Of a stretch of DNA of 32,299 nucleotides, positions 157-32,299 are shown one piece after another (positions within the stretch are counted from its first letter, which is position 1; each line of letters starts with the position of its first letter). Origin of the DNA: Nitrospira sp. CG24C (GTDB lineage: Bacteria; Nitrospirota; Nitrospiria; Nitrospirales; Nitrospiraceae). The stretch lies in contig NEWR02000009.1 in the NCBI GenBank assembly GCA_002869885.2, positions 668,873 through 701,171 of the forward strand, written 5' to 3'. The notes under the pieces are model-generated. The model made no database searches and was not told the DNA's origin. It saw only the letters and a program-made list of their open reading frames with translations. The position numbers and the translations under genes were made by a program.

Positions 157-254
157 GGAGGGTGGTCTGTTTGGCCTCCCACTGCGCGCGTCCAACGAGG
201 GCCTTCTGAGGCCGCGCGTTGCGCGAGCACAGGAGGCCAACAGGCCACCCTCCC
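157..254 (+). repeat. Palindromic repeat family 1, copy B
   Basis: Complete 98-nt imperfect palindrome. Outer arms 157-179 and 232-254 pair almost along their whole length. The core (181-231) has TCCAACGAG, the stem GGCCT-TCTG-AGGCC and GCGTTGCGCGAGCA. In this copy CAACG pairs with CGTTG, whereas copies A, C, D and E have GAACG with CGTTC. The stretch 1-370 holds this copy, copy A and no convincing gene; the short reading frames across it are products of the repeat. Confidence 0.85.
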
Positions 255-370
255 ATTCTTCCTTTGACAGAGCCCCCCCTTCCTGGCTATGATTCCTGTC
301 ACCCGATTCAACCTTGAAGTTAAAAACGTATGTTTCCCAGCCACCATTTCTTTATCAAAGGAGTAGGCAT

Positions 371-736
371 ATGAAGCTCGTAATCGGCACTGTTGCAACC
401 GTCTCCGGTGTCTTATTTGCGCTCTCGATGGCCTCGGCGAATCCATCACTCCTCCCCAAACATGAAGGCTACCCGATGAAGAACAGCGGAAGCCCTGTGA
501 CCGGCCAGCCGACCGCCAACGATCCTGGCCAGTCGGATGCGCGTGGTGAGAATACGCTGATGAAGTCAGCCGACTCTGTTAAGAGTGCCCAGCAGAGCCT
601 CATGAAGTCGGACAATGCTCGGATTACCACAGGTCAGGGAGCGAATCAGCTCCCGACCGTGCAGGGGCCACAGATCAAGATCGCGCCTCCGGTAACCTCC
701 GCCACAAAGATCACCGGCAATCGAAAGATCGAGTAG
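371..736 (+). CDS. Small secreted protein of unknown function
   Basis: A 121-residue protein. The ATG at 371 is chosen because AAAGGAG (357-363) sits 7 nt upstream and the product then begins with a typical signal peptide: MKLV, a hydrophobic stretch and an ASA cleavage-like site near residue 22. The reading frame stays open upstream to 314 but that extension has no ribosome site. The mature part is polar and rich in Gly, Ser, Asn, Pro and Lys, and contains a repeated LMKS motif (LMKSADSVKSAQQS then LMKSDNAR). I see no catalytic motif and do not recognise a family. It is probably periplasmic. It stands alone, transcribed against the next gene, and ends in a strong terminator. Confidence 0.75.
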   Translation: MKLVIGTVATVSGVLFALSMASANPSLLPKHEGYPMKNSGSPVTGQPTANDPGQSDARGENTLMKSADSVKSAQQSLMKSDNARITTGQGANQLPTVQGPQIKIAPPVTSATKITGNRKIE

Positions 737-745
737 TCACGCAGT

Positions 746-1357
746 TCAGCGAGTTTCAACAAGGGGCACCGGATTTATCCGGTGCCCCTTTGTTTTTTTC
801 CTGCGTTCAGCCCGAGTAAGAACTGTGTCCCTCTCTAGCCGGAACCGCCAGGGCTTCTTGGCCCAGACACCCGCATAATCGACGCCGATTCGAGGGTGAG
901 CTCCCACATTGCCTCTCTTCACCGATGCCCCTCGATCCTCGAACCAGAGGGATTCGCCCATTGTGAGATCCGCACGATTGAGGCTTCGATCGATCTGCAT
1001 TGCGCGACAGAGCCGCCCAGGACCATCGATCAACTTCCCATCCAGTTCAATCGCCCTGATCAAAACGGCTGCAGGAAACTCTTCACGCTCTGTCACGACG
1101 TTCAGACAATGATGCATCCCATAGATGAGATAGACATACGCAATTCCTGCCGGACCAAACATGACATCCGTCCGTCGAGTTCTCCCTTTCGACGCATGGC
1201 AGGCCTTATCTTCTGACCCGACATAGGCCTCGACCTCGATGATCTTCCCCGCTATCTCTCTCCCGTCAATGCAACGGATAAGATATTTCCCCACAAGCGA
1301 CCGCGCCACGGTCAGCGTGGGACGATTGAAGTAGGTGCGTGACAGAGTACGGCGCAT
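746..1357 (-). CDS. mpg: DNA-3-methyladenine glycosylase (Mpg/AAG family)
   Basis: Removes alkylated purines from DNA to start base-excision repair. From the ATG at 1357 it has 203 residues, the usual size of bacterial members, and starts RRTLSRTYFNRPTLTVARSLVGK. Family signatures visible are IIEVEAYVGSEDKACHASKGRT, with the Glu-Ala-Tyr region that holds the catalytic Glu, then MFGPAGIAYVYLIYGMHHCLNVV, and a late GVDYAGVWAKKPWRF. A start 17 codons further upstream (1408) is open, but that stretch runs through a 7-bp repeat and lacks a ribosome site. The C-terminal tail after PWRF (about 30 residues, including KGHRINPVPL) is longer than expected and is read through the terminator hairpin of the convergent upstream gene. 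Confidence 0.88.
   Translation of the reverse strand: MRRTLSRTYFNRPTLTVARSLVGKYLIRCIDGREIAGKIIEVEAYVGSEDKACHASKGRTRRTDVMFGPAGIAYVYLIYGMHHCLNVVTEREEFPAAVLIRAIELDGKLIDGPGRLCRAMQIDRSLNRADLTMGESLWFEDRGASVKRGNVGAHPRIGVDYAGVWAKKPWRFRLERDTVLTRAERRKKTKGHRINPVPLVETR
761..799 (+). terminator. Rho-independent terminator of the 371-736 gene
   Basis: A perfect 13-bp stem, AAGGGGCACCGGA (761-773) with TCCGGTGCCCCTT (778-790), has a TTTA loop and is followed by TGTTTTTTT (791-799). It is oriented for the + strand. The opposite strand of the hairpin is coding for the end of the glycosylase gene. Confidence 0.93.
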
Positions 1358-1360
1358 GGC

Positions 1361-1444
1361 AATTTCGAATGATAAATGTTGAATGTTAAATGATCTGAAA
1401 CGAGTCATTCAATCCAAAATTTACCATTGACCATTCACCATTAG
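1361..1444. repeat. Heptamer hairpin repeat (AATGTTR / CCATTNA)
   Basis: Between the receptor stop and the glycosylase start lies a run of 7-bp units: AATGTTG, AATGTTA, AATGATC on one side and CCATTGA, CCATTCA, CCATTAG on the other, loosely complementary. A separate small hairpin AGCCGC-AGA-GCGGCT (1443-1457) follows the receptor stop directly and could end that transcript, although it has no T-run. Confidence 0.6.
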
Positions 1445-1458
1445 CCGCAGAGCGGCTG

Positions 1459-3501
1459 CTAAAAGTACCAGGCAATGCCGCCCATAACCATCCGCGGACT
1501 TCCCGGCACGAAGTGGATGTCATTGCGCGGCGCGCCTTCGTTCCGCAATTGCGACTGGAAGAAAAATGTCGCCTGTTCCCATTTCGTATTGAAGAGATTC
1601 TGCACAAAGAGGAAGGCCTCCATACGTCCATAGGGTAACGTAACGGGGAGCTGGTAGCGTTCCGACAGGTCGAAGTTGAGCCAAGACGGGGCGTTGGCGC
1701 TGCGATCTTCGATGAGAGGTCTAACTCCAAGATAGGTCGCCTGCAATTGCGACGTGAGGCCCTCCGGCCAGGTCAAGAGCACTGCCCCATAGGCCGTCAC
1801 TTCAGGGGCGAGTGGAATCGCATCTCCATTGCGAAACTCCGCCTTGGTATAGGTCACGCTGCCGTTGACATACAGTGGTCCCCAGACTTGGCCACGGGCC
1901 GCCACCTCTACGCCGCGCCGCCGGCTGGCCCCTCGGATTTCTGTCGTGCCACCGTCGCCACGAAAGACCAGCTCAGACTGAAGATCCAATTGCCAGGCGG
2001 TTGCAATGAGTTCGATGCCGTCAGGCCCCCAAGGCTTCGATCTGAGTCCCGCCTCGTAATTCTTAGACCGAGCCAGCGGCGAAGCCGCTTGTGCCACGGC
2101 AGAGCGAGCATCGTTGCTGTGAAAGCCCTCACCATAGTTTATGAACAACTCGGTGGAGGCCCAGGGTCCGAGGATAAGATTGGCTTTCGGGAGGATCAGC
2201 CAAGAGGTGGTACGCCCGGCTGGTTGTTCCGCACAGGTCTCGCATCGATTACGGACATCGAAGGTGAACAGCTCGCTGCGCACACCGCCGACGAATTTCA
2301 TCCATGACGTCGGCTGGACCTCTGCCTTCAAAAACGGCGAATAGGAGGCCTCCAGGACATCCGTGTCGACGGTCGTTCCCAGAGAGTTGCGCCGGAATTG
2401 CGGTCCCAGCCTGACGTGAGTCTTGTCGACCCGGCTCTGAACTCCGACGGTCGCAACACTCGGCATATCAAGGATCTTGCCCTCTTGCTGATAGCCAATG
2501 TCGCCTCCGTAGATCACGCGGCGATCGGATTGCTGAAACCCGTCCCCGTTCACCGGGTCGCTTCGAAAGAAGGTGAAATTCGAATAGAGATCGAATGTGT
2601 AGTATTGCGCATAGGCGTTCGCGAAGAAGCGTCCTCCCGAGAGGGTATCGTAGTGGTAATTGAGTTTGGCCGTGGACCGGGCCGTTCTCCCGCCTTCGGA
2701 TGGATCGATCGACCCAAAGCGATCGACCGTGCCGTCCGTCACCGCGCGAAGCGGGATTTCGCCCGATCCATTCCACTGTGATTTGTGAAAGGTTCCGGTG
2801 ATGCTCAGCTCGTCGCGCCCGGAGGGATTCATCGTCACCTTGCCCAGCAGATTGCCCCTGAAATAACGGTTATCGTTCTGGAACGGCCCATTCGTGTAGT
2901 AGCCTTCCGCGGCGAACAACGTCCGGACCTTCTCCTTGGTCGGCGAGAACATGAGCAGATGCCGTTGCGTATCGAATTGTCCCCCTGCCGATTGCACCAC
3001 ACCTTCCTTGACCGTCTCGCGAGTACGGAAATTAACCGCGCCCGCCGTGGCGAAATCTCCATACTCGGGCAGATAAGATCCCTTGTGCACATCAATCCCT
3101 TCAATCGTCTCCGGAATGATGAAGTTCAAGTCGGTATAGCCCTGGCCATGCGCATGGGAGCGCAGATTAATCGGCATGCCGTCGGAAAAGAACGCGACAT
3201 CGGTGCCGTGATCCGCATCGAATCCACGCAGAAAATATTGATCGGCCTTGCCTGCGCCGCCGGAGTGCTCGACTGCGATGAACCCTGGAATCAAACGCAG
3301 CACCTGCGCCGGACGCCCTTGCGGTTGAAGCAGAAGCTCTTTGTCCGGGATAAACTGTTGGGAAGACGCGGCCACAGGACGCGTGCCAACGATGGACACC
3401 TCCGGCACGTCGACGATGTCGTCGTCAGGAGCGTGGGCGAACGCAGAGGAGACAACGAGCAGAAGCGCGGCGAGATGGAAGAAGAGGCTGATGACACTCA
3501 C
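1459..3501 (-). CDS. TonB-dependent outer-membrane receptor, probably for nickel
   Basis: Energy-dependent uptake of a scarce metal or metal complex across the outer membrane. I place the start at GTG 3501, 8 nt after the NikR stop, because the product then opens with a clean signal peptide (SVISLFFHLAALLLVVSSAFAHA). The frame is open to 3639, but that part lies inside nikR. The length is 680 residues. A plug domain follows at about residues 30-160 (EVSIVGTR, QVLRLIPGFIAVEHSGGAGKA, YFLRGFDADHGTDVAFFSDG, GIDVHKGSYLPEYGDFATAGAVNF), then a beta-barrel ending in the aromatic terminus GGIAWYF. His-rich stretches (NLRSHAHGQGY) lie near the plug. Tight linkage to nikR points to nickel, but the substrate is inferred from context. 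Translation is likely coupled to nikR. Confidence 0.9.
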   Translation of the reverse strand: MSVISLFFHLAALLLVVSSAFAHAPDDDIVDVPEVSIVGTRPVAASSQQFIPDKELLLQPQGRPAQVLRLIPGFIAVEHSGGAGKADQYFLRGFDADHGTDVAFFSDGMPINLRSHAHGQGYTDLNFIIPETIEGIDVHKGSYLPEYGDFATAGAVNFRTRETVKEGVVQSAGGQFDTQRHLLMFSPTKEKVRTLFAAEGYYTNGPFQNDNRYFRGNLLGKVTMNPSGRDELSITGTFHKSQWNGSGEIPLRAVTDGTVDRFGSIDPSEGGRTARSTAKLNYHYDTLSGGRFFANAYAQYYTFDLYSNFTFFRSDPVNGDGFQQSDRRVIYGGDIGYQQEGKILDMPSVATVGVQSRVDKTHVRLGPQFRRNSLGTTVDTDVLEASYSPFLKAEVQPTSWMKFVGGVRSELFTFDVRNRCETCAEQPAGRTTSWLILPKANLILGPWASTELFINYGEGFHSNDARSAVAQAASPLARSKNYEAGLRSKPWGPDGIELIATAWQLDLQSELVFRGDGGTTEIRGASRRRGVEVAARGQVWGPLYVNGSVTYTKAEFRNGDAIPLAPEVTAYGAVLLTWPEGLTSQLQATYLGVRPLIEDRSANAPSWLNFDLSERYQLPVTLPYGRMEAFLFVQNLFNTKWEQATFFFQSQLRNEGAPRNDIHFVPGSPRMVMGGIAWYF

Positions 3502-3509
3502 GAGGGCGC

Positions 3510-3960: not shown

Positions 3961-4135
3961 AACACTTCACAAAGCGCAAATCAATTCAGCATCAACACAA
4001 TCGAGCAGGGGGAATACTTGGCTGGAATCTATTCTATCAACAGACTGGAGGGCGGAGACTGACTGGTCTAGCGGACATCCGTGGAGGACTTAAATTCTTC
4101 TCGCTTTCAAAGGAGGGAGTGGCCGGGCTGCCCTT

Positions 4136-4195
4136 CACTGCGCGCATCGAACGAGCCGCATCCATCAAAATGATCCCTCCAAGCTTGCTCGTTTC
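4136..4195 (+). repeat. Degenerate fragment of palindromic repeat family 1
   Basis: CACTGCGCGCATCGAACGAGC (start 4136) matches the left half of the family core. The right half is replaced by other sequence, with AACGAGC (4150-4156) still complementary to GCTCGTT (4187-4193). The rest of the 3961-4202 gap shows nothing I can name; the 70-codon minus-strand frame over it is not supported. Confidence 0.45.
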
Positions 4196-4202: not shown

Positions 4203-4298
4203 GGAATGGCACCCGTGCAGATTCCACTGCGGCCGTCGAACGAGCACATTCTGATCGTGCGCGTTCCGGGAGCAAGGGATCAGCACGGGTGTCATTCC
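4203..4298 (+). repeat. Palindromic repeat family 1, copy C
   Basis: A 96-nt palindrome ending one base before the htrA stop codon. Outer arms 4203-4225 and 4276-4298 pair at about 20 of 23 positions. The core has TCGAACGAGCAC-ATTCTGATC-GTGCGCGTTCCG and GGGAGCA. It forms the 3' flank of htrA. Confidence 0.87.
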
Positions 4299-4299: not shown

Positions 4300-5712
4300 T
4301 TATTCGCCTTGGACAGGGATATACATGACGTTCCCCTGCCGATTGATCAGCAGGAGGGCCATGCTGGATGGCTTGATCGCGTCAGCCAGTCGCTGGAACC
4401 CGTCGAAGTTGTGAATGGGCTGACGATTGAGCTCCATCACCACATCGCCGGGCTGGAGGCCGGAAGATTCGGCCAGGCTGCCTTCTTCGATGTCAGTCAC
4501 CACCACCCCGCTGGTGACAGACAGATCCATCTGCCGGGCCAACGGCGTGGTGACATCGTCAAAAATGACGCCGGAGAGGGGATGGGCCGTGGCAGCCGAG
4601 GCTGATGCTGATTGGCTCTTCTTGGTCCGTTCACGCGGCGCCTCCTGCACAACCAGGTCAGCCTGGTACGGTTTACTCTCGCGCATGAGATCCAGCCGGT
4701 GCTTGCTCCCGATCGTAGACGCGGCCACGAGGTTCCGAAGATGTCCGCTGTCCATCACGTCGCGCCCATCGAATCGCACAACCACATCCCCGCGCTTGAG
4801 TCCGGCTTTTTCGGCAGACCCTTTCGGCTGCACATCGGTCACGATCGCACCCTTCACATCGGGGAGACGAAAGACCTTGCCTAACAGGGGCGAAACATCT
4901 TGTGTCGAGGCGCCGAGGAACCCGCGGACAACATGACCGGTCTTGAGCAGGCTCTGCATGGCAGACCGGGCCATATTGCTTGGGATGGCAAAGCCCACAC
5001 CGACGCTCCCGCCTGTGGGGCTGGCAATGGCGGTATTGATCCCCACCAATTCTCCATTGAGGGTCACCAGGGCCCCGCCGGAATTGCCTGGATTGATGGG
5101 GGCATCGGTTTGAATGAAATCTTCGAAGTCGGCGACACCGACATCGGCGCGACCGACAGCACTCACGATGCCGAACGTCACACTGCGACTTAACCCAAGC
5201 GGGTTCCCGATCGCGAGCACAAATTCGCCGACGGCGAGCGTGCTCGAATCCCCCCACGTGACTGTCGGGAGATTGGTCGCCTGAATTTTTACCACAGCCA
5301 CGTCTGTCTTTGGATCGGTAGCCACCACTCGCCCTTTGAATTGCCGCCGGTCGGCAAGAATCACTTCCACATCGACTGCATCGGCAATGACATGGTTGTT
5401 CGTCATAATGTAGCCGTCCGGCGAAACAATGACGCCGGAACCCTGGCCATATTGCCGCCGCGACGGGACATCCTTGAACAGTCCGAACGGCAGCGCTTCG
5501 TCGCTGAATGCTTGATCGCGGACCATCACCGTGGAGGCAATGCTGACAACAGCGGGGATCACTTTCGTCGCGGTCGACTTGATTTGCGCCTGGAGTTCAC
5601 CTCCCCCGGCCACAGGGATCACGCGGCTCGCGGCCAGAGCTGTTCCAGCAACCATCGAACTCCCAACAAGAAGCCCAAGCACGATCCGCAATAGACAATT
5701 GGGTCCTAACAC
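4300..5712 (-). CDS. Periplasmic serine protease, HtrA/DegP/MucD family
   Basis: Degrades or refolds damaged envelope proteins. Start: GTG 5712, with AAAGGA 7 nt upstream; the product (470 residues) then begins with a signal peptide (LLRIVLGLLVGSSMVAGTALA). The trypsin-like domain has the complete triad: His107 in TNNHVIA, Asp137 in TDVAVVKI, Ser211 in GNSGGAL. Two PDZ domains follow (about residues 280-370, with GAIVTDVQPKGSAEKAGLKRGDVVV, and 390-470, with GVVVTDIEEGSLAESSGLQPGDVV). The frame stays open upstream to 5829 because a 9-bp repeat there carries no stop; that extension (FILFIWLVWL) is not a plausible start. It is downstream of the copper ATPase on the same strand, separated by a hairpin repeat. 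Confidence 0.93.
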   Translation of the reverse strand: MLGPNCLLRIVLGLLVGSSMVAGTALAASRVIPVAGGGELQAQIKSTATKVIPAVVSIASTVMVRDQAFSDEALPFGLFKDVPSRRQYGQGSGVIVSPDGYIMTNNHVIADAVDVEVILADRRQFKGRVVATDPKTDVAVVKIQATNLPTVTWGDSSTLAVGEFVLAIGNPLGLSRSVTFGIVSAVGRADVGVADFEDFIQTDAPINPGNSGGALVTLNGELVGINTAIASPTGGSVGVGFAIPSNMARSAMQSLLKTGHVVRGFLGASTQDVSPLLGKVFRLPDVKGAIVTDVQPKGSAEKAGLKRGDVVVRFDGRDVMDSGHLRNLVAASTIGSKHRLDLMRESKPYQADLVVQEAPRERTKKSQSASASAATAHPLSGVIFDDVTTPLARQMDLSVTSGVVVTDIEEGSLAESSGLQPGDVVMELNRQPIHNFDGFQRLADAIKPSSMALLLINRQGNVMYIPVQGE

Positions 5713-5750
5713 GCCACGGTCCTTTCTAACGGATGCTGAACAAGTTCGCC

Positions 5751-5842
5751 AGTCTGTCTTGTTCATTTGGTCTCTCTGGTCTATCTGGCTCAACCAAACC
5801 AACCAAATAAACAAAATAAACCAGACCAACTAGATGAACCAG
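5751..5842. repeat. Nonamer hairpin repeat H1
   Basis: The left arm has degenerate 9-bp units of the type TTTGGTCTC / TCTGGTCTA, and the right arm has complementary units (AACCAAATAAAC, AAACCAGACC). It fills the gap between the copper ATPase stop and the htrA leader. The segment 5731-5752 (GGATGCTGAACAAGTTCGCC) resembles the end of palindromic family 4 and recurs at 13658-13684. Confidence 0.75.
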
Positions 5843-5877
5843 CCATGTAGCCTAACACGCGTGCGCCAGAGGCGCAC

Positions 5878-9263: not shown

Positions 9264-9806
9264 ATGTCGGACAAGCTCTTAGCTCGCACGCTGCTCTCTG
9301 CCGTAGCCTTGCTCGTGACTCTTGCAGGTTGCGCCTCGACGCAAGAGGCGGAAGACAGACAGGGGCTCACCTTCCTCCAAGTCAAGGCAACACCGGACTC
9401 CTTTCAAGGTCAATCGGTAGTCTTCGGTGGGAAAGTCTTGACGGCTCGACGGCAAAAAGACGGCACGAGGATCGAGATCTTACAGTTACCCCTCGATCAA
9501 TCCATGCGCCCCGGATACGACTTGACCCAATCACAAGGCCGTTTCATCGCCCTCTACCGAGAATTCCTCGATCCTGCGACCATTCCACCGGGAACCAGAG
9601 TCACTGTGAGAGGTGAGGTCTCCGGTTCCGTTACCCTGCCATTGGATGAAACGGACTATACCTATCCCGCCATCAGCATCAAGCATGTGCAAGTGTGGCC
9701 CGCCTCGGAAGACATGGCCCCTCGCATCCGCCCCTATATGGGACCGGGGCCCTCTTGGGGGCCTTATTGGAGCCCCTCGTGGCGTCCGTGGCCATATTAT
9801 TGGTAA
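9264..9806 (+). CDS. Slp-family outer-membrane lipoprotein
   Basis: A 180-residue protein from the ATG at 9264. The signal peptide ends in a lipobox LAGC, with Cys23 as the acylation site (LLVTLAGCAS). The body fits the Slp family: a beta-rich region with FLQVKATPDSFQGQSVVFGGKVL, GRFIALYREFLDPATIPPGTRVTVRGEVSG and ISIKHVQVWP. The C-terminus is an unusual Trp/Pro/Tyr-rich tail (GPSWGPYWSPSWRPWPYYW). It is likely anchored in the outer membrane; the molecular role of the family is unclear. An earlier ATG at 9228 would cost the lipoprotein signal its normal position. It is convergent with the TPR gene; the whole gap is one hairpin. Confidence 0.87.
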   Translation: MSDKLLARTLLSAVALLVTLAGCASTQEAEDRQGLTFLQVKATPDSFQGQSVVFGGKVLTARRQKDGTRIEILQLPLDQSMRPGYDLTQSQGRFIALYREFLDPATIPPGTRVTVRGEVSGSVTLPLDETDYTYPAISIKHVQVWPASEDMAPRIRPYMGPGPSWGPYWSPSWRPWPYYW

Positions 9807-9931
9807 GCGAGACAGGCGGGACTTGCGCGATGAGCGAGACTGAGGACGGTTCGAGGTCCGAAGTTCGAGGTTTTGGGAACTTCGAACCCTGAACTTCGAA
9901 CTTCGGATCGCGCAAGTCGAGCCTGCCTTGC
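9807..9931. repeat. Composite heptamer hairpin filling a convergent gap
   Basis: A 125-nt nested palindrome between two stop codons. Outer arms 9807-9830 and 9908-9931 pair at about 20 of 24 positions. The inner arms are 7-bp repeats: GTTCGAGGTCCGAAGTTCGAGG on one side and GAACTTC/GAACCCT units on the other. + strand exit is TTGTTT, so it may act as a bidirectional terminator. It shares its inner sequence with the element at 22085-22147. Confidence 0.8.
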
Positions 9932-11000: not shown

Positions 11001-11003
11001 CGT

Positions 11004-11104
11004 CAGTTTGTTTGGTTTGTCTCGTTTATTTGGTTTGTTTTGTTTGTTTGGTTGAATCAGACCAACTCGACGAACTAAACAAACCAAATAAACAAAACAA
11101 ACTG
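11004..11104. repeat. Nonamer hairpin repeat H2
   Basis: Left arm: units such as TTTGGTTTG, TTTTGTTTG, TTTATTTGG. Right arm: AAACAAACC, AAATAAACA, AAACAAACTG. It directly abuts the TPR gene start. From 11105 to about 11299 I see no gene or repeat; a short open stretch on the minus strand is not convincing. Confidence 0.8.
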
Positions 11105-11299
11105 AGCCGCAATGGTTAGCAAACTATAGACGGCAGCAACCGTGAAATCAACGATGCGCGCAATAACGAGAAATCGAAGCGCACAGGGGGCACCACCTGG
11201 CTCGACGAGAGAGCAGCGATCACCGGAAGCGCGTGTTCAGATGTATGGTGGCAAGATCTCCTCCCACTTTGATGAGCGCGTCGATCGCCGGACAATCCA

Positions 11300-12770: not shown

Positions 12771-12859
12771 CTTTGTTTTCTTCCTGGTTGATTTTGTTTA
12801 TCTGGTTACTTTTGTTCAACCCCAAAACCAGACAGACCAAATAAACCAAATGAACAAGA
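12771..12859. repeat. Nonamer hairpin repeat H3
   Basis: Arms of TTTGTTTTC, TTTTGTTTATCTGG units face AACCAGACAGACC, AAATAAACC units. It fills the gap between the oxygenase stop and the endonuclease start. Confidence 0.7.
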
Positions 12860-12879
12860 CAGCGCCTACGAGCGCTGTC
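12858..12879 (-). terminator. Hairpin overlapping the end of the 2OG oxygenase gene
   Basis: GACAGCGC (12858-12865) pairs perfectly with GCGCTGTC (12872-12879) around a 6-nt loop. On the minus strand it is followed by TTGTTCATTT. The stem contains the last codons and the stop (12866-12868) of the oxygenase gene. It is a weak, T-poor terminator candidate. Confidence 0.4.
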
Positions 12880-13657: not shown

Positions 13658-13795
13658 CATCAGGCGGCTGAACAAGTCCGCCAGAGCTGCGGCGCGCGAC
13701 TTGCGCGAAACGCGCGACTTGAAGTTTCGAAACCTAGAACTTCGAACCCTCATTTGTCCCTCGTGTCTCGCCTGCCCCACCAGTCTCGCTCGGCT
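13658..13795. repeat. Composite heptamer hairpin downstream of lolA
   Basis: Contains CAGGCGGCTGAACAAGTCCG (13658 on), a likely end-fragment of palindromic family 4; then GCGCGACTTGCGCGAAACG, and a heptamer core GAAGTTTCGAAACC / TAGAACTTCGAACC. It ends in TTGTCCCTCGTGTCTCGCC. Read on the minus strand it resembles the composite element at 9807-9931. The 61-codon frame across it is a repeat product. Confidence 0.6.
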
Positions 13796-14591: not shown

Positions 14592-14687
14592 AAGGGTAAC
14601 CTGGTCGATCCTCGATTGCGCGCGTCGAACGAGCACATTCTTATCGTGCGCGTTCCGCGAGCAGGAGGACAATCAGGCTACCCTTCC
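14592..14687 (+). repeat. Palindromic repeat family 1, copy D
   Basis: A 96-nt palindrome between ftsK and lolA. Outer arms 14592-14613 and 14664-14687 pair imperfectly. The core has TCGAACGAGCAC-ATTCTTATC-GTGCGCGTTCCG and CGAGCA. It would form the 5' leader of lolA in an ftsK-lolA message. Confidence 0.82.
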
Positions 14688-14690: not shown

Positions 14691-14721
14691 CCTTCTGAGA
14701 CCGCGCGTTGCGCGAGCACAG
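14691..14721 (+). repeat. Half copy of palindromic repeat family 1
   Basis: CCTTCTGAGACCGCGCGTTG then CGCGAGCACAG matches the right half of the core of copies B and F. The left half and arms are missing. It is followed by a low-complexity run of TACCCCTATACCCCGCCATA type that contains the ftsK stop codon (14749-14751). Confidence 0.65.
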
Positions 14722-14748
14722 CAGTACCCCTATACCCCGCCATACCCC

Positions 14749-17210: not shown

Positions 17211-17306
17211 GGAGGTAGTCTGGATCATCCCCCTTGCTCCCGGAACGCGCACGATCAGAATGTGCTCGTTCGACGGCCGCAGTGGGGGACAATCCAGACC
17301 ACCTCC
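17211..17306 (-). repeat. Palindromic repeat family 1, copy E
   Basis: A 96-nt palindrome between rsmA and ftsK. Outer arms 17211-17233 and 17284-17306 pair at 20 of 23 positions. Read on the minus strand the core is nearly identical to copy C, while the outer arms are different in sequence from those of copy C. Confidence 0.88.
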
Positions 17307-17369: not shown

Positions 17370-18164
17370 TTAACCAAGGGCATGCGCGAGCCGGAGGAAG
17401 TCCTCAACCGACAAGGTCTCTGCCCGGCGAGTCGGAGCAATATCCAATTGCTTCAATCCCTCGGCTACGGAAAGAAGCTCATACCCTTCATCTCGCAGAG
17501 AATTGACCAGCGTTTTTCTTCGATGGGCAAAAGCCGCCTTCACGAGTGCGCGAAATTCGACTTCTTCTTGCTGGCTGAGCCTCGTGCGCTCTTTCGTGCG
17601 CAGTAAGACTACTGCCGAGGCGACTTCTGGCCTGGGACGGAAACACTGGGCTGAGACACGAAACGATTTAGTGATCTCGGCTGCATACTGCGCCATGACC
17701 GAGAGCACGCCATAGTCCGAGCCGCCGGGTTTTGCCACGAGACGATCTGCCACTTCGGCCTGCAACATGAGCACCATGCGGAGAAACCGGCCCCGCTGGT
17801 CGAGTAATCGAAAGAGCAGCGGAGTTGAAATGTAGTAGGGCAGGTTAGCCACGACGACCGTCCCGATCGGCAGGCTCTCGACCGGATAGGCCAGCGCGTC
17901 TTCACAAACCAACTCTACATTTGGAAGTTCCGCTTGCCTGGTTTCGAGATAGGCATGGAGCCGTGAGTCCACTTCGATCGCCGTCACACGACCGGCTGCG
18001 CGGCTCAGCGCCTCTGTCAGGATGCCGCGGCCCGGACCGATTTCCAACACGTGGTCGCTGGGTTGCAATTCTGCCAACGCAACGATTTTACGCACGATGT
18101 TGGGGTCGATCAGAAAGTTTTGACCGAGCCGTTTGTTCGGCGGAGGGAGATCAGGAATCGACAC
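17370..18164 (-). CDS. rsmA: 16S rRNA dimethyladenosine transferase RsmA (KsgA)
   Basis: Dimethylates two adjacent adenines in the 3'-terminal hairpin of 16S rRNA using S-adenosylmethionine. It has 264 residues. The start is GTG 18164, 3 nt after the stop of the preceding small gene, so translation is probably coupled. Motifs: KRLGQNFLIDPNIVRKIV (11-28), SAM site EIGPGRGILTEAL (41-53), catalytic NLPYY (107-111), CFRPRPEVASAVV, and KAAFAHRRKTLVNSL. The length is normal for the family. The pdxA - small gene - rsmA order keeps the common pdxA-rsmA linkage. Confidence 0.95.
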   Translation of the reverse strand: MSIPDLPPPNKRLGQNFLIDPNIVRKIVALAELQPSDHVLEIGPGRGILTEALSRAAGRVTAIEVDSRLHAYLETRQAELPNVELVCEDALAYPVESLPIGTVVVANLPYYISTPLLFRLLDQRGRFLRMVLMLQAEVADRLVAKPGGSDYGVLSVMAQYAAEITKSFRVSAQCFRPRPEVASAVVLLRTKERTRLSQQEEVEFRALVKAAFAHRRKTLVNSLRDEGYELLSVAEGLKQLDIAPTRRAETLSVEDFLRLAHALG

Positions 18165-18494: not shown

Positions 18495-18510
18495 CACTAG
18501 GCTCCTCTTG

Positions 18511-18631
18511 AGATGGTCTATCTGGTCTATTCGGTCTGTCTGGTCTGTCTGGTCTGTCTGGTGCCGCCTTTATCGACAGAGGCTCGACTCAGTCTAGATA
18601 GACCAGAGAGACGAGATAGACCAGACAGACC
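18511..18631. repeat. Nonamer hairpin repeat H4
   Basis: The left arm (18511-18572) has exact 9-bp repeats GGTCTGTCT in a row; the right arm (18594-18631) is complementary (TAGACCAGAGAG, TAGACCAGACAGACC). It spans the gap between the pdxA stop (18634) and the ribosome site of the small gene. This is the clearest case of 9-bp periodicity in the window. Confidence 0.85.
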
Positions 18632-18633: not shown

Positions 18634-19668
18634 TCACCGTCTTTTTGCCAGCTGGGCGGCCAGCGTGATCGCCTCGATCAGACTGCCAGGGTCTGCGATG
18701 CCTTTCCCCACGATATCGAACGCGGTCCCGTGATCGACCGAAGTACGAATGATCGGCAGACCCACCGTCAGGTTCACACAAGTGCCGAAGGCGACAAGCT
18801 TTAAGGGAATGAGCCCCTGGTCATGATAGAGGGCCACGACACCGTCGTAATCACCTCTTGCCGCCTTACCAAATAGCGTATCGGCCGGTAAAGGATCGCT
18901 GGCGCGAATGCCCTGGGCCTGTGCCGCACGAGCTGCCGGGAGAATGACCCGCGCCTCTTCGTCCCCGAACAGTCCATGTTCTCCAGCATGGGGGTTCAAC
19001 GCGGCAACACCAACCCTCGGTTTCTTAATTCCAAATAGGTCCCTCAAGGCCAGATGAGCCAGCCTGATGGCTTTTTCGATCTTGGCCTGGGTCAGGAGCG
19101 TTGGCAAATCCTTGATCGCGACATGGGTTGTCACAAACATGATGCGGAGCGGTCCTCCGATAATCATCATGCCGGACTCCTCGGTCTTGGTCAGGTCTGC
19201 CAGCAGTTCCGTATGGCCGGGGAAATGACAGCCGGCCATGTTGATCGCTTCTTTATTGATCGGTGCTGTGACGATGCCGTCGATACAACCGAGCTGGGCC
19301 AGTTCAACGGCCTTTTTAATGAACAGCACGGAGGCCGCTCCGGTTTCAACCGCCGCAACTCCACGCGGGAACCGCCCAAGGGGACGATCGAGCGGGTCCA
19401 GCACGGCCAGGTCACTCAGGCGCGGTGGCTTAGGATCGTGGCCCTCCACACGAATCACGTTCACCTTGAGTTTCAGACTCTTGACCGCCTGCTGCATCAC
19501 CGGAAACGAGCCGATGACAATTGGACGACACAGGCGCCGCAATGCCGGTCTTACCAGGGCCTTCGCAATCACCTCCGGGCCAATCCCTGCCGGATCTCCC
19601 ATGGTGATCCCGAGAAGAGGTTTGTTTTGTTTATTTGGTTTCTTTGGTTTGTTTTGTTGTGTCTTCAT
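18634..19668 (-). CDS. pdxA: 4-hydroxythreonine-4-phosphate dehydrogenase
   Basis: An NAD-dependent step of pyridoxal 5'-phosphate synthesis. It has 344 residues. The ATG at 19668 has GGGAG 7 nt upstream. Family motifs: PLLGITMGDPAGIGPEV, ITAPINKEAI-type TAPINKEAINMAG, PGHTELLADLT, NPHAGEHGLFGDEE, PLPADTLF, ALYHDQGLIPLK and SVDHGTAFDIVGKG. The first 16 residues (MKTQQNKPKKPNKQNK) are not family sequence: they are read from the right arm of hairpin repeat H5. A start further in (the Met of GITMGDP) would remove conserved residues, so the repeat appears to be translated. In the mRNA the ribosome site and ATG would lie in the hairpin loop. Confidence 0.93.
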   Translation of the reverse strand: MKTQQNKPKKPNKQNKPLLGITMGDPAGIGPEVIAKALVRPALRRLCRPIVIGSFPVMQQAVKSLKLKVNVIRVEGHDPKPPRLSDLAVLDPLDRPLGRFPRGVAAVETGAASVLFIKKAVELAQLGCIDGIVTAPINKEAINMAGCHFPGHTELLADLTKTEESGMMIIGGPLRIMFVTTHVAIKDLPTLLTQAKIEKAIRLAHLALRDLFGIKKPRVGVAALNPHAGEHGLFGDEEARVILPAARAAQAQGIRASDPLPADTLFGKAARGDYDGVVALYHDQGLIPLKLVAFGTCVNLTVGLPIIRTSVDHGTAFDIVGKGIADPGSLIEAITLAAQLAKRR

Positions 19669-19738
19669 TAACCTACTCCCCATTGAACCAAACAAACGAA
19701 ACAAACCAGACAAACCAGACAAACCAAATAAACCGTCT
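19621..19738. repeat. Nonamer hairpin repeat H5, overlapping the pdxA start
   Basis: Arms 19621-19657 (TTTGTTTTGTTTATTTGG type) and 19684-19738 (ACCAAACAAACG, AACCAGACAAACC type) are complementary. The loop, 19658-19683, contains the pdxA ribosome site and start codon. One arm is coding for the PdxA N-terminal tail. Confidence 0.85.
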
Positions 19739-19745
19739 TAAGCGG

Positions 19746-20753
19746 TTACCAACCATAGAGATACACCACATACCCTATATAAAGGATGGCGCTCCCGCTC
19801 AGCAACCAGGGTCGCCAGAGAGCGCCCCAGGCAGCCTGCGCCAATAAGAAGGTGGCAGCGGTCACGGCAAGTACCATGGTGATCAATGCCGTCGGCGCCA
19901 GCGTCCAGTCCGTACCCAGGAGCCCGATCGAGACTGGGATTGTACCCTGAAAGACGATCGCGCCGGTGACATTCCCTACCGCCAACCGATCCTTCTTCCG
20001 GTAGAGCCAGAGAAAACTGTTCGACATCTCAGGTAGCTCGGTCGCCAGGGGCGCGACAAGAAGGGCCAGGATCAATGGAGATATCGACAGGGCTCGCGCG
20101 ATCGTTTCTGCAGCGAGCACAAAGAGATGCGCTCCGAGCGCGAGACCAGCCAAGCCGATGAATGCTTGAAGACCTATGAGTCCAAACGACGGGGTTGCCG
20201 CCTTCCTGGCAAAGAGCAGCGGCTCAAGCCCACCACCCTCGCCTCCCTCCTCATCAGTCTCACTAAACTTCAGTTTGACGTAATAGAGATAGAGCCCTAT
20301 CAACCCGACGGCGGCGACGGCATGCGCCAGTCGAGACGGAATAAACACACAGGCCAGCGCGACGCTGTAAGCCGCCACAAAGAAGGAGAGATCGCCCCTC
20401 ACATCACGATAGTTCAATCGGAAAGCGGCGGTTCGCTTCCCAAGTTTGGCGTAGACCACCAGCAAGATGGCCAAGATGGGGATCACCAGCGTGGTCAACA
20501 TGAAGGGAGCGCCGAGGATCGCGCCCAACCCCACCTCCGCTTCGGCACGGCTGGCCCCGAAAAAAATGGCAATGACTGGGATGGAGGTTTCAGGAAGTGT
20601 GGTGCCGATGGCCGCCAACACGCCGCCGACCGCGCCTTCGGACAAATTGAATCGCTTGCCCACCCACTCGATGGCATTCGTGAAGAGCGTGCAGGCGCCC
20701 AGCGTCACCGCGACAGAAACGAGGAAGAGAAGAGTATAGAGGAGAACCGTCAT
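19746..20753 (-). CDS. Sodium/calcium exchanger family membrane protein (CaCA)
   Basis: A 335-residue inner-membrane cation antiporter with about ten membrane segments. The two inverted alpha repeats of the family are visible: GGVLAAIGTTLPETSIPVIAIFFG (about 42-66) and LILALLVAPLATELPEMSNSFL (about 226-247), each with the acidic Glu that binds the cation. An acidic cytoplasmic loop (SETDEEGGEGGG, near 167) lies between the halves, a possible cation-sensing loop. The start overlaps the larC stop by ATGA (4 nt), so it is translationally coupled to larC. The transported ion is not certain; members exchange Ca2+ for Na+ or H+, and the partner gene leaves a role for another divalent metal open. 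Confidence 0.88.
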   Translation of the reverse strand: MTVLLYTLLFLVSVAVTLGACTLFTNAIEWVGKRFNLSEGAVGGVLAAIGTTLPETSIPVIAIFFGASRAEAEVGLGAILGAPFMLTTLVIPILAILLVVYAKLGKRTAAFRLNYRDVRGDLSFFVAAYSVALACVFIPSRLAHAVAAVGLIGLYLYYVKLKFSETDEEGGEGGGLEPLLFARKAATPSFGLIGLQAFIGLAGLALGAHLFVLAAETIARALSISPLILALLVAPLATELPEMSNSFLWLYRKKDRLAVGNVTGAIVFQGTIPVSIGLLGTDWTLAPTALITMVLAVTAATFLLAQAAWGALWRPWLLSGSAILYIGYVVYLYGW

Positions 20754-21955: not shown

Positions 21956-22084
21956 GTGCGTCCTTTCCCTACTCAATACTTACCGCGCCCATATTACCCA
22001 AGCTGCGCGCGAACGGCAATCGGCCAAAATGGCGCGCGAGGAGCGCGACTTTTGAGAAAGGCGAGACATGTGAGACGAACGACG

Positions 22085-22147
22085 GTTCGAGGTTCGGCGT
22101 TCGAGGTTTTCTGAACTTCGAACTCGGAACTTCGAACTCAGAACCTC
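22085..22147. repeat. Heptamer hairpin repeat upstream of larC
   Basis: Left arm GTTCGAGGTTCGGCGTTCGA (22085 on), loop TTTTCT, right arm of 7-bp units GAACTTC, GAACTCG, GAACTTC, GAACTCA, GAACCTC. The inner sequence nearly matches 9848-9905. Upstream (22031-22080) are GCGCGAGGAGCGCG and GGCGAGACATGTGAGACG, also like the composite element at 9807. Confidence 0.78.
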
Positions 22148-24854: not shown

Positions 24855-24879
24855 ATCGTGAACCCTAACAGGCGGTTAA

Positions 24880-24967
24880 AACTGGTTCATCTGGTTTATT
24901 TGGTTGATTTCGTTGATTTGGTTCAACCAAATGAACAAGACAAACCAAACAAACCAAAGCAACCAAG
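24880..24967. repeat. Nonamer hairpin repeat H6
   Basis: Arms of TTCATCTGGTTTATTTGG, TTGATTTCGTTGATTTGG units face AACCAAATGAACAAGACAAACC, AAACAAACCAAAGCAACC units (each described from 24880 and 24923 on). It lies in the divergent gap between gpsA and the zinc-ribbon gene. The rest of that gap (24968-25099) shows nothing I can name. Confidence 0.75.
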
Positions 24968-25099
24968 AGCGAGCGGATTATAGGAACCGGTTCTTTCACC
25001 TGTCAATGAACGAGAGGCGGTCTTTGAAATCCATCACGACATGAGAGACTCCACTACGCTAGCAAACCGGCGCACTTCCGTGTAGCCTAGGAACCATCC

Positions 25100-27045: not shown

Positions 27046-27059
27046 GGCCACACCAGAAA

Positions 27060-27143
27060 GTTGGCTGGTTGCTTTGGTTTGTTTTGTGTATTTGGTTGAA
27101 CCAGACTGACTAAATCAACCAAACAAACCAAATGAACCGTAGC
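27060..27143. repeat. Nonamer hairpin repeat H7
   Basis: Arms of TTTGGTTTGTTTTGTGTA and TTTGGTTGAACC units face AAATCAACCAAACAAACC and AAATGAACC units. It fills the gap between the LOR/SDH gene and the dihydrolase gene. Confidence 0.78.
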
Positions 27144-27157
27144 AACGAGGGCGACAC

Positions 27158-28487
27158 TCACAGACGCGCTCCCAGCTCCCGCGCCAGCTCGCGCAGAAAC
27201 GACGCGGCATCCATGACCAGCCCGACAGCCTGAAAACTTCCTCGATCCGCAAGTTTCGTCGGGACGGCTGGATTGACATCGACGCAGACGGATGGAATCG
27301 TGGCAGGCAACAAATTGCCCGTCGCCACCGCGTGCAATGTCGAAGCGACGAGCAGGGCCAGTCCGATACCGGGGATTGCCCTACGCATGGCTGCCTGGGC
27401 TTCCAACGAATCCGTGATCACGCCGGGCAAGGGGCCGTCATCGCGAATCGTGCCGGCCATGACGACCTGGACACCCCGCCTGACACAGGCCGCCATAATT
27501 CCGGTCTTGACGACTCCCGACCTGACCGCCGCTTCGATGCTGCCGATGGCCCTGATCCGATTAATGGTTCGCAGATGGTGTTCATGCCCATGCGGCACGA
27601 CACGACCAGCCGCATGCCCATAGCCGAGGGACGTGCCGTAGAGATCGACTTCCATATCATGAGCCGGCAGCGCATTTCCGCAGAATAAGACATGGATGAA
27701 TTCTTCATCGATGAGCCATGCCAAGGCCTCACGCCCTCCGGCGTGAACAATCGCCGGGCCACCAGCCAGCAGCACCTTGCTGCCAATTTTCCCCTCTCGG
27801 AACCCTGTTCGCAACTGCACGAGGCGCTTGGCGATGTCGCCGATGACGCGCCCATGGGGACGTTCGGATGAGACCTGCGATTCCATGAAGCTGAATACGT
27901 CGCGGTCACGTGGCCGTTGGAGCGGAATGACCCGCACACCCTCACGACCGATCACAACCTGATCTCCCTGCTTCACCTCTCCCATCGGAACAGTCCTGCC
28001 GTTGGAGCGGAATGACCCGCACACCCTCACGACCGATCACAACCTGATCTCCCTGCTTCACCTCTCCCATCGGAACAGTCCTCGCAGTCAGACGAACCGG
28101 GTCCACGAGAATTCCCAGATCCATCTCGATCCCCTCCACCTCCACCCACTGGTCGCGCACTCGTACTTGGGTCGGTAAATGCGTCGTCGCATAGAACTCG
28201 TCAGGAAAGATGCCGTCCGCCGGCGCTGCCGCCAGCCGGCAATCCCGTTCATTCTCGACTGACGCACCGTGAGGTTGAATGGCATGGAGAATCTCGCTGA
28301 GCAGCTTCGCAGAGGAAGCCTGCACGACGATTCTGGCGCGCGAGGGTTCCTCGCGAGTCTTGCCGATCTGCATATCTTGAAGATCGAAGGTTCCGCCCAT
28401 CATCAGAATCGTGTCCAGAACCTTCGCCAGGATCAACGAATCGATGATATGGCCTTGGAGTAGGACGGTTTCTTGGTCATGCATCAT
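27158..28487 (-). pseudogene. LOR/SDH family gene (TIGR00300-like, ornithine cyclodeaminase type), frameshifted by an 85-bp tandem duplication
   Basis: The gene starts at ATG 28487 (MHDQETVLLQGHIIDSLILAKVLD) and reads well to VRVIPLQR, then shifts frame and stops at 27942. A second frame (to 27158) carries the remainder: RPRDRDVFSFMESQVSSERP, LLAGGPAIVHAGG, GNALPAHDMEVDLYGTSLG, and a glycine-rich end. Removing one copy of the exact 85-bp repeat restores a single protein of 414 residues, the normal size of the family, which converts ornithine to proline and ammonia in characterised members. As drawn the gene makes a 181-residue N-terminal product; the second frame has its own ATG (28030), but no good ribosome site. 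It is either a recent mutation or an assembly error. Confidence 0.85.
27913..28082. repeat. Exact 85-bp tandem duplication
   Basis: 27913-27997 and 27998-28082 are identical over all 85 bases, starting GCCGTTGGAGCGGAATGACC and ending CATCGGAACAGTCCT. Neither flank extends the match. Because 85 is not a multiple of three, the host gene is shifted by one base. Confidence 0.95.
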
Positions 28488-29868: not shown

Positions 29869-29894
29869 TCTGGATAGGGATGAGACGACTCGCA

Positions 29895-29903
29895 TGATAT
29901 ACT
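29895..29903 (+). promoter_or_regulatory. Extended -10 promoter element of the EF-hand-like gene
   Basis: TG-A-TATACT with TATACT 6 nt before the ATG at 29910, identical in layout to 9249-9257. It predicts a leaderless message for the 29910-31402 pair. No ribosome site is visible. Confidence 0.5.
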
Positions 29904-29909
29904 TTTCCC

Positions 29910-30551: not shown

Positions 30552-31402
30552 CCAGGCACGAGAAATCCTGGCCTGATCAAGCCCGCTCCTTCATCGGATA
30601 TTGTCTGAGCGAACCCCTCTACCGACTCTTTAGTCTCGTTCCCCACTTGGAGATCGGACTCTCTACGCAAGAAATTTCACGGCTCACCTATGCGCACAGC
30701 CTCTTAGCCGGTCACCGGGCCGTTCATCTGAGCGATCTGCACCTCGACCGCTATCAACCACGGCACGATCGCGTCGTCGCCACCATCGGCGAACTCCGCC
30801 CTGACTGGATCTTTATCACCGGTGACCTGATCAACGTCCCGGAGGGGCTACCGCATGTCTTTCGGTTTCTCGCCGGCTTGCGCGAGATTGCGCCGGTCTT
30901 CATCACGTTGGGCAACCATGACCATTACAGCGGCGTGCCGATCGATCGGTATTGCGAACTCGCCGATCGCCACAAGATCACCCTCTTGATCAATCAGACT
31001 ACCTTCATTCGCACGGACTGCGGCGAGATCGCCATTGTCGGCGTGGACGATCCTTCGCTGCATCGGGCCGACTTGAGCTGCCTGCCGCCGAGCGCACAGA
31101 ACCGTTTCACCCTCTTGCTGGCCCATGCGCCGAACATCCTCGATCAGCTGGAAAACCACCATGCCGTCGATCTGATCCTTTGCGGGCACAGCCACGGAGG
31201 CCAGTGGCGCATTCCCGGCGTGCCGACGTTCTGGCTCCCCCCTGGATGCAATGGGCGGATCGATGGGCATCACGGAGAACCTGGCCGCCGGCTCTATGTC
31301 AACCGTGGGCTCGGATGGTCGTTTCTTCCTCTGCGATTGAATTGCACACCGGAAATCGCCTGTATTGAATGGGTCGACGAACAGGCCCACCCAGAAAACT
31401 GA
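30548..31402 (+). CDS. Calcineurin-type metallophosphoesterase (YkuE/LpxG-like)
   Basis: A 284-residue dinuclear-metal phosphoesterase. Metal-ligand motifs in order: Asp63-x-His65 (HLSDLHLDRY), GDLI with Asp93, GNHDH (122-126), a histidine in LLLAHAPN, and GHSHGGQWRIPG. This set is complete. The N-terminal ~55 residues (GYCLSEPLYRLFSLVPHLEIG) may lie on the membrane. Relatives include YkuE and the UDP-2,3-diacylglucosamine pyrophosphatase LpxG, so a role in lipid or envelope metabolism is possible; substrate not shown. Translationally coupled (ATGA) to the EF-hand-like protein. It is convergent with the HEAT-repeat gene. Confidence 0.88.
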   Translation: MTRHEKSWPDQARSFIGYCLSEPLYRLFSLVPHLEIGLSTQEISRLTYAHSLLAGHRAVHLSDLHLDRYQPRHDRVVATIGELRPDWIFITGDLINVPEGLPHVFRFLAGLREIAPVFITLGNHDHYSGVPIDRYCELADRHKITLLINQTTFIRTDCGEIAIVGVDDPSLHRADLSCLPPSAQNRFTLLLAHAPNILDQLENHHAVDLILCGHSHGGQWRIPGVPTFWLPPGCNGRIDGHHGEPGRRLYVNRGLGWSFLPLRLNCTPEIACIEWVDEQAHPEN

Positions 31403-31460
31403 AGTTCGGAGTTCCGGGTTCGAAGTTCTGAATACCTCGAACGTCGAACCTCGAACTCTT
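31401..31460. repeat. Heptamer hairpin repeat in a convergent gap
   Basis: Units GAAGTTC, GGAGTTC, CGGGTTC, GAAGTTC are followed by CTCGAAC, GTCGAAC, CTCGAAC. The two sides are complementary. It starts at the stop codon of the phosphoesterase gene. Beyond it, 31461-31511 has CGCGCAAGTCTCGTGCC and TTCGCGCG, like the outer parts of the composite elements at 9807 and 13658. Confidence 0.75.
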
Positions 31461-31511
31461 CCCAATGTCTCTCATCACGCTTTTCGCGCAAGTCTCGTGC
31501 CTTCGCGCGAT

Positions 31512-32144
31512 TTACTTGATCCGCTCCAACGCTTCCTTCGATCGGCTCCTGACAGTTTGATCCCAATCCTCCTTCATAACAGTCGTCAGCTTCTCCTTCG
31601 CCTCATCGGCGCGCAAACGGCCCAATCCCAACGCCGCACTGGAACGAACATAGGCATGCTCGTCCTCCAACGCCTTCAGCAGAAGAGGGATCACAGTTCT
31701 ATCGTTCAGAGCCCCAAGGTAACTGGCCGCCATCCCTCGAATCCGGTGCTGCTCGTCACTCAGCGCCCGCTGCAGCGTCGTTGCAAAAAGATCTCGTAAC
31801 GCGGGCGCCACGGATTCCAACCCCTCGGCCCGATACCCATTGATTTCCATCAATGTAAAGGCGATCTCCAGCCTCTTCTCCTGTACCGTGGCCCGTTCGA
31901 ACGCAACCAACAACTTCGCACGTTCACGCCGCTGCGTCCTCCGACGGTTGAACGCCCGAACCAGGATGAAGAGCCCCGCCGCGACCACCAATCCCGCAAA
32001 CGCCACGGGAATGGCTTGATCGATCACATAATCCTGGGTATCGAACGACAGGCGCTTCCACACCCAGACGCCGGTAATGACGACGCCGACAAGGATCACG
32101 ATGGCAACTATATTGGTCTGGCCCGATTCAGAACGATTGCTCAT
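31512..32144 (-). CDS. Membrane protein with HEAT repeats
   Basis: A 210-residue protein. Two membrane segments (about 11-29, NIVAIVILVGVVITGVWVW, and 43-64, AIPVAFAGLVVAAGLFILVRAF) are followed by a basic stretch (NRRRTQRRERAK) that should stay in the cytoplasm. The C-terminal half holds HEAT/PBS-lyase-type repeats: RIRGMAASYLGALNDRTVIPLLLKALEDEHAYVRSSAALGLGRL and KEDWDQTVRSRSKEAL. These usually bind other proteins. No partner is evident. The start at ATG 32144 has no ribosome site; a TGCTAAGAT extended -10 lies 9 nt upstream, so the leader would be very short. Confidence 0.85.
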   Translation of the reverse strand: MSNRSESGQTNIVAIVILVGVVITGVWVWKRLSFDTQDYVIDQAIPVAFAGLVVAAGLFILVRAFNRRRTQRRERAKLLVAFERATVQEKRLEIAFTLMEINGYRAEGLESVAPALRDLFATTLQRALSDEQHRIRGMAASYLGALNDRTVIPLLLKALEDEHAYVRSSAALGLGRLRADEAKEKLTTVMKEDWDQTVRSRSKEALERIK

Positions 32145-32153
32145 GGGAAGAGC

Positions 32154-32162
32154 ATCTTAGCA
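32154..32162 (-). promoter_or_regulatory. Extended -10 element of the HEAT-repeat gene
   Basis: TG-C-TAAGAT on the minus strand, 9 nt before the ATG. TAAGAT matches 4 of 6 of the consensus. It would give a nearly leaderless message, like 9249-9257 and 29895-29903. Confidence 0.35.
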
Positions 32163-32212
32163 GGAAGAAAGGAGGAGCGGCCAGGTGCCCTTTTTGCTCG
32201 CAGAACAGAAGG

Positions 32213-32299
32213 GGGATGGAGCCTGATGATCTTCTGTGCTCGCGCAACGCGCGGCCTCAGAAGGCCCTCGTTGGACGCGCGCAGTGGAAGATCAATCAG
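32213..32299 (-). repeat. Palindromic repeat family 1, copy F (cut by window edge)
   Basis: Read on the minus strand the core is like copy B (TCCAACGAGGGCCTTCTGAG, then GCCGCGCGTTGCGCGAGCA). The outer arm 32213-32235 is complementary to the visible start of the other arm (32285-32299). The window ends inside the second arm. Confidence 0.8.

Follow-up and report, generated by a model that had tools for sequence, protein, structure and literature searches.

Genomes of Nitrospira and its kin carry a repetitive hairpin element that is nearly private to this one bacterial family, often lies right behind stop codons, there nearly always in one polarity, and is kept foldable on the strand antisense to the gene that it follows. 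The family-wide distribution, the stop-codon polarity and the excess of G.T over A.C mismatches on the element's written strand (the strand given for each copy in Table 1) are new here. The reading that we favour, with a confidence just short of even, is a REP-like repetitive hairpin element of one family that has spread strand-specifically and been kept at gene ends.

Copies of the hairpin in the Nitrospira sp. CG24C window

The stretch of DNA analysed, here called the window, comprises 32 299 nt of Nitrospira sp. CG24C (contig NEWR02000009.1, positions 668 873 to 701 171). A sequence-only reading of it had listed at least six copies of a palindromic repeat and two fragments between genes, and a profile search of the window recovered all of them, as four complete copies, two cut by the edges and two fragments (Table 1). 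The 5′ half of the core occurs five times in the window and in none of 100 shuffles. Both window edges are runs of N in the assembly that fall inside copies, and N runs often start or stop inside copies elsewhere as well (L010, L011, L017, L018, L038; C22:324635), so that scaffold gaps track the repeat.

Table 1. Hairpin copies and other repeats, with window positions unless a contig handle is given
Feature	Position	Strand	Context
Hairpin copy, 5′ arm missing	1..69	+	Window edge is an assembly gap
Complete hairpin copy	157..254	+	116 nt upstream of start of called gene 371-736(+)
Fragment, 5′ half of another copy	4120..4156	+	Outer half of a likely nested pair
Complete hairpin copy	4203..4298	+	Directly behind stop codon of opposite-strand htrA-like gene 4300-5655(-)
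Complete hairpin copy	14592..14687	+	61 nt behind stop codon of opposite-strand ftsK 14749-17088(-)
Fragment, 3′ half of another copy	14691..14724	+	Between copy 14592-14687 and ftsK stop codon
Complete hairpin copy	17211..17306	-	63 nt behind stop codon of same-strand RrnaAD-family gene 17370-18164(-)
Hairpin copy cut by window edge (assembly gap)	32213..32299	-	Upstream of start of called gene 31512-32144(-)
9-bp-period hairpins	5750-5849, 11003-11121, 12783-12874, 18503-18631, 19618-19752, 24874-24973, 27057-27165		
Third dispersed repeat	9806-9902, 13737-13791, 22042-22138, 31401-31497	both orientations	
85-bp tandem duplication	27913-28082		Called gene region
145-147-nt matches (CG24C)	C2:406001, C2:301116, C22:628730, C12:16592, C2:209963, C21:101614		

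Three other repeats were noticed in the window. A second type of long imperfect hairpin has a 9-bp period (GGTTTGTTT / AACCAAACA type) and occupies seven sites; a third dispersed repeat carries GAACTTCGAAC motifs in both orientations; and a perfect 85-bp tandem duplication is either real or an assembly error.

Structure is kept rather than sequence

A complete copy is a hairpin of about 97 nt whose inner core is conserved and whose outer arms vary in sequence yet stay paired. Moving inwards from the arm of 22-23 bp, the fold passes through a small internal loop and the pairs TGC/GCA to a G-A mismatch and a stem of 4 bp. Beyond an unpaired TC come the SAACG/CGTTS stem of 5 bp, an A-G mismatch and, at the tip, a short helix. 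Positions T27-G30, T35-C36, A38, G41-A42, G58, G60, T64 and the 3′ GAGCA are invariant in 36 aligned copies, and the mismatched purines of the core are among them. The arms, put at 23 bp in the sequence-only reading and described there as widely different yet paired within each copy, indeed run from almost the same sequence among members of a sub-family to sequences that are unlike. That reading was also right to place the repeat well above the size of classical REP sequences, typically 20-40 bp, of which it has three to five times the length.

The written strand of the four complete window copies folds at -48 to -72 kcal/mol (z -5.9 to -9.3), and either strand folds better than every shuffle. 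For three of these copies the written strand gives the more stable fold; for the fourth, 14592-14687, the other strand reaches -52.4 and the written strand -48.4 kcal/mol. Up to E = 1, the covariance models of Rfam 15 matched no window copy; six weak matches fell elsewhere.

Covariation was judged against shuffles and against pairs with slid partners. Two-sided changes were found in 32 of 39 pairs among the 36 copies, standard pairs made up 80.7% of cells, and the covariation score was 0.377, compared with 0.181 ± 0.010 in 500 shuffles and at most 0.234 for slid partners. Because paralogues could mislead, the comparison was repeated at orthologous sites, with rows that we chose from the 20 ftsK and 19 htrA-like loci holding a match, nested or odd copies excluded. 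Copies behind ftsK (7 rows) scored 0.493, with 0.213 in shuffles and at most 0.145 for slid partners, and those behind the htrA-like gene (10 rows) scored 0.399, with 0.166 and at most 0.137. The count of further pair types did not rise above shuffles in either of these small sets (A4, 421 of 500 shuffles as high; A3, 55 of 500).

It is therefore strongly supported, genome-wide and at orthologous sites, that structure rather than sequence has been maintained, as the sequence-only reading had proposed from paired changes in the stem. One of its examples, CAACG/CGTTG against GAACG/CGTTC, is a clean double change (C-G in 25 and G-C in 11 of the 36 copies). Pairing is kept in each of the tip types GGCC, GCCC and GCAC, in the last of them in a shifted register. 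The GCGGCCG/GGGAGC swap alone holds only in part: one pair is compensated (G-C 32, C-G 4), but its neighbour is unpaired in 4 of 36 rows.

Paired arms could also arise neutrally, if template-switch correction during replication kept the two arms of a palindrome alike with no selection on structure. Arms of unrelated sequence do pair near-perfectly, and both sides of a pair could change in one such event. We regard this as improbable, as the correction should erase the core mismatches and the unpaired TC, yet these are invariant in the 36 copies, and it predicts neither the mismatch bias nor the stop-codon polarity set out below.

The element is confined almost entirely to one family

In the CG24C genome, model R1 gave at least 134 matches at E<=1, from 150 of 1043 first-look candidates scored. 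All 25 genomes of the genus sample (up to 100 candidates scored) held matches, as did one of 16 other genomes of the order (G037, E 3e-10). In the phylum sample, where 13 candidates were scored in each genome, the model matched 74 of the family's 79 genomes and none of 216 others; the totals of 79 and 216 rest on a kinship-ordered listing that shows all but the last 201 unmatched genomes. As a limited number of candidates was scored in each genome, the copy numbers are lower bounds, and the absence outside the family holds at that depth. All 80 loci listed for the core pattern, among at least 111 stretches, come from records titled Nitrospira, Nitrospiraceae, Nitrospirae or Nitrospirota, and viral contigs held no exact match to the pattern.

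Copies face stop codons in one polarity

Gene positions were taken from our own codon-usage caller, not a published program, with 11 of the 134 CG24C copies skipped; an overlap of more than 30 nt with a called gene was seen for four of the 134. Distances of 0-10 nt from the preceding stop codon are frequent, and the polarity there is fixed. A facing stop codon on the opposite strand lay within 30 nt for 46 of 83 copies in CG24C, and a same-strand stop codon for 1 of 47. The corresponding counts were 35 of 70 and 1 of 30 in other Nitrospira records (122 of 160 matches, the set left once antisense echoes, truncated or partial matches and the weakest ones had been removed) and 25 of 41 and 1 of 16 in the closed genome G272. 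When the three sets, which share ancestry and so are not independent, were pooled, 106 of 194 opposite-strand and 3 of 93 same-strand copies lay within 30 nt of the nearest stop codon (Fisher p 5e-20, kinship ignored). Between tandem genes, 62 copies were on the opposite strand vs 26 on the same strand in CG24C, and 49 vs 13 in other Nitrospira. The window copy at 17211-17306 is on the same strand as its gene, against this rule, but stands beyond 30 nt. The element is thus REP-like in the broad sense: high-copy, intergenic, palindromic and near gene 3′ ends.

Same-strand copies ahead of a following gene come at the nearest to 28-58 nt from the start codon, and within 60 nt of it in 7 of 40 cases in CG24C and 10 of 36 in other Nitrospira records, which is perhaps a second, weaker placement rule.

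Replication was considered as the cause of orientation and rejected. In G272, with the terminus taken as the antipode of dnaA, strand broadly follows replichore, and all 17 matches at 2.33-3.87 Mb are on the + strand. However, the near-stop opposite-strand copies lie behind co-directional genes in 21 of 25 cases and behind head-on genes in the other 4, so the polarity goes with the gene.

Orthologous gene ends and the age of copies

The htrA-like and ftsK genes, behind which window copies lie, are ordinary chromosomal genes present in 28 and 26 of 32 genus genomes. At least one match lay within about 330 nt behind the stop codon at 19 of 28 htrA-like loci and 20 of 26 ftsK loci, and, apart from faint echoes that the hairpins themselves give, none of these matches shares the strand of its gene; locus L375 ends ahead of the stop codon and allows no verdict. 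Arms, copy number and nesting vary by lineage.

In a tree of the 3′ part of ftsK, midpoint-rooted with a root for drawing only, hairpins with alike arms (L392 and L401; L394 and L400) flank the deepest split, which suggests that one ftsK hairpin is as old as the genus. Overall, the copies behind ftsK look old and vertically kept. Six ftsK loci are without a match (L381, L387, L393, L396, L397, L404). We weighed at three of them (L393, L396, L397) whether arms are inverted copies of the target flank; with alike arms on both sides of the deepest split, the root again being a drawing root, loss is the simpler reading. The sequence behind ftsK in G240 (L387), GGGGAGTGGCCACTCCCC, resembles two arm ends remaining after the hairpin interior was lost.

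The antisense strand is the one kept foldable

A fold that is kept on one strand tolerates G.T mismatches there and not A.C, and the two swap on the other strand. The G.T:A.C ratio on the written strand was 149:38 in CG24C and 156:37 in other Nitrospira, 82:18 and 67:21 when alike arms were collapsed, and 185:94 in a coarser count; the wobble counts took in 107 of 134, 108 of 122 and 30 of 55 copies. Orthologous htrA/ftsK copies gave 53:14. Pooled over the three sets, the ratio was 55:13 for convergent, 41:8 for divergent, 170:32 for tandem-opposite, 57:20 for tandem-same and 37:18 for locus-edge copies, a two- to five-fold excess in every pooled gene context. In G272 alone the bias is absent from five same-strand tandem copies (4:5) and two divergent copies (2:4).

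Since the bias is present in every pooled gene context, it is a property of the element rather than an effect of transcription next to it. If mutation linked to transcription were its source, same-strand copies should show the reverse ratio; in the pooled counts they do not, and this source was rejected. As the written strand, with its excess of G.T, is antisense to the gene whose stop codon it abuts, the antisense strand is the one kept foldable, which counts against a plain mRNA hairpin and leaves single-stranded DNA or antisense RNA.

A host element at mRNA 3′ ends, in which a hairpin of the sense transcript after the stop codon ends transcription or blocks 3′ exonucleases, nevertheless has evidence on its side. 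It fits the fixed polarity and the distance of 0-10 nt from the stop codon, hairpins are kept across the genus at the htrA-like and ftsK gene ends counted above, and the sense strand also folds far better than shuffles. Effects of REP sequences on mRNA stability and termination are cited in the available portion of the HUH survey PMC6006769. The mismatches in a sense RNA are mostly A.C and not G.U, however (149:38 and 156:37 reversed), and the wobble bias is unchanged by gene orientation. Flank composition points the same way. Across 252 copies, a stretch rich in pyrimidines, where T reaches 0.43-0.52 at some positions, lies downstream of the hairpin on the written strand, and the flank upstream of the hairpin is T/C-rich, so that the sense side behind the hairpin is A/G-rich, with no U tract right after the hairpin in sense RNA. 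We hold an mRNA role of this kind to be possible but doubtful.

The same flanks bear on an antisense RNA element, whose written-strand transcript would end in or carry the hairpin, for example stopping antisense transcription into the 3′ end of the gene. The written strand is the foldable one and the pyrimidine-rich stretch follows it, but the T enrichment is modest and present upstream too, and copies show no excess between convergent genes (21 of 123 classed copies vs 27 of 162 gaps), which makes this reading unlikely.

Signs of spread and the search for an enzyme

Several patterns are consistent with spread. There are sub-families of alike copies with alike flanks, and tandem copies with a common arm (L024, L029). 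Interrupted hairpins make up 11 of 86 parsed copies: where the tip normally measures 18-19 nt, these have 51-223 nt; at C17:14873 the letters that flank a whole foreign copy join into a normal tip. Parsing of 251 complete copies gave 14 nested cases, which share a single orientation; the weakest of them may be chance, as 1312 of 20 000 random half pairs also reached the arm score required. Other hairpins also sit in the core or tip of the element, one of them 9-bp-periodic and one with TGGCACGCCGAGACGTGCCA.

Further composite forms were seen. A relative of the 9-bp-period hairpin lies in the element tip at L035, L132 and C2:299573. In six CG24C matches of 145-147 nt, the same extra small hairpin (TGGCACG..CGTGCCA type) replaces part of the 5′ side of the core. 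At L022, L023, L024, L026, L030, L037 and L039 the element lies within a larger repeat with ends GGATGCTCAAAA... and ...TTTTCAGCATCC.

A linked TnpA-REP (RAYT) transposase, to which the sequence-only reading had looked, was not found. On the contig with the single PF01797 (Y1 transposase) gene of CG24C, the closest model match is some 45 kb away from that gene, and in the genus a copy lay within 1.5 kb at 1 of 20 Y1 loci scanned, among 25 genus matches. At E<=0.001, PF01797 matched in 14 of 25 genus genomes, all 25 of which carry the element, and gave no match in the other 11; G001 and G018, at 99% completeness, hold 86 and 96 model matches and no PF01797 match. The proposed RAYT link was rejected on these counts, Y1 genes being rarely near copies and not in all element-bearing genomes. 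The sole Y1-type gene product of CG24C (L046, C20) has a weak C-terminal helix-turn-helix match, and the frame after its gene has what we take to be YD/RHS-like repeats. Integron integrase was above cut-off in 2 of 32 genus genomes and reverse transcriptase was found in 8 of 32, neither in CG24C; other tyrosine recombinases matched below the integron integrase cut-off in all 32. The suggestion that the element copies itself as a folded strand fits the strand-specific wobble bias and the same-orientation nesting, but no enzyme was found and movement was not observed.

Comparison with known systems

Integron attC sites also follow stop codons, and it is their bottom strand that recombines, in folded form; the Nitrospira element shares their placement, their structure over sequence and their folded antisense strand. 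In attC sites the conserved part is outside and the variable part inside, the reverse of the arrangement here. The sites examined hold no cassette arrays, and the two gene ends followed across the genus belong to ordinary chromosomal genes. Dispersed attC sites are extremely improbable, a reading largely refuted by how rare the integrase is.

Like an intrinsic terminator, the element is a stable G+C-rich hairpin right behind stop codons; unlike one, it has no sense-side U tract, and it has a long conserved core and an antisense-strand wobble bias.

With REP, BIME and REPIN sequences and their RAYTs the element shares high-copy intergenic hairpins, sub-families with compensated stems, a position near gene 3′ ends and, probably, being acted on as a folded single strand. 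It differs, besides its length, in having the core inside and variable arms outside, no linked RAYT and a measured stop-codon polarity, and the flanks of 252 copies show no GTAG consensus at either hairpin end that could serve as an unpaired GTAG (GTRG) head. RAYTs flanked by REPs are described in the available part of PMC2817692. The accessible text of PMC3733652 reports REPs near 3′ ends, sub-families whose stems show compensation, G.T pairs and longer palindromes that contain REP dimers, and defines CGTC REPs by an unpaired CGTC, a stem of 8-9 bp, a loop of 4-5 nt and a CCA tail. CGTC beside the stem, the lack of a dedicated transposase and some members in longer palindromes are common to both, as far as that text goes. 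By the same definition the Nitrospira element falls outside the CGTC class: only TC is unpaired, the CG being paired in the fold, the stem is longer and interrupted, the loop is longer, and no CCA tail was identified. Nitrospira does not appear in that text. Nitrospira moscoviensis stands in a REP-candidate table in the available part of PMC12306157, where the default palindrome limit is 32 nt. A small check of titles and abstract starts in the open-access literature on Nitrospira palindromic repeats returned no description of the element. As REP-like traits are shared but no RAYT link was found, we call it REP-like and not a RAYT-REP.

Proposed retention of a REP-like element at gene ends

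Our favoured reading draws on the two-sided pair changes, the wobble bias, the stop-codon polarity, the sub-families, the tandem and nested copies and the matches in 74 of 79 family genomes. A candidate nuclease or transposase would recognise the written strand in its folded form, in all likelihood single-stranded DNA, by way of the core, where the G-A and A-G mismatches and the unpaired TC lie. Spread would be strand-specific, with some copies entering the tip of one already present, and a hairpin that arrived at a gene end may then have been retained for long by punctuating the transcription unit.

Some observations count against a mobile reading. The ftsK copies look old and vertically kept, so that selfish spread alone is inadequate; the stop-codon polarity follows transcription, which a DNA element does not need; no enzyme was found; copy 14592-14687 folds better on its other strand; and G272 holds the exceptions to the bias. 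A more elaborate possibility, to which we give rather less credence than to the REP-like reading and slightly less than to the mRNA one, is a hairpin system of gene ends shared across the family. Here the mobile element would have a strand-specific enzyme of its own that reads the folded antisense strand and places copies behind stop codons in one polarity and into the tips of the element's hairpins; the host would since have adopted the copies as transcript-end punctuation, which compensatory change maintains.

REP-like repeats are common, and the Nitrospira element offers strong handles on their spread without a linked transposase and on their role at gene ends, in its stop-codon polarity, measurable folding strand, compensated orthologous copies and nested copies, within an environmentally important group of nitrite oxidisers. 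The by-strand test of G.T against A.C mismatches is applicable to further REP families.
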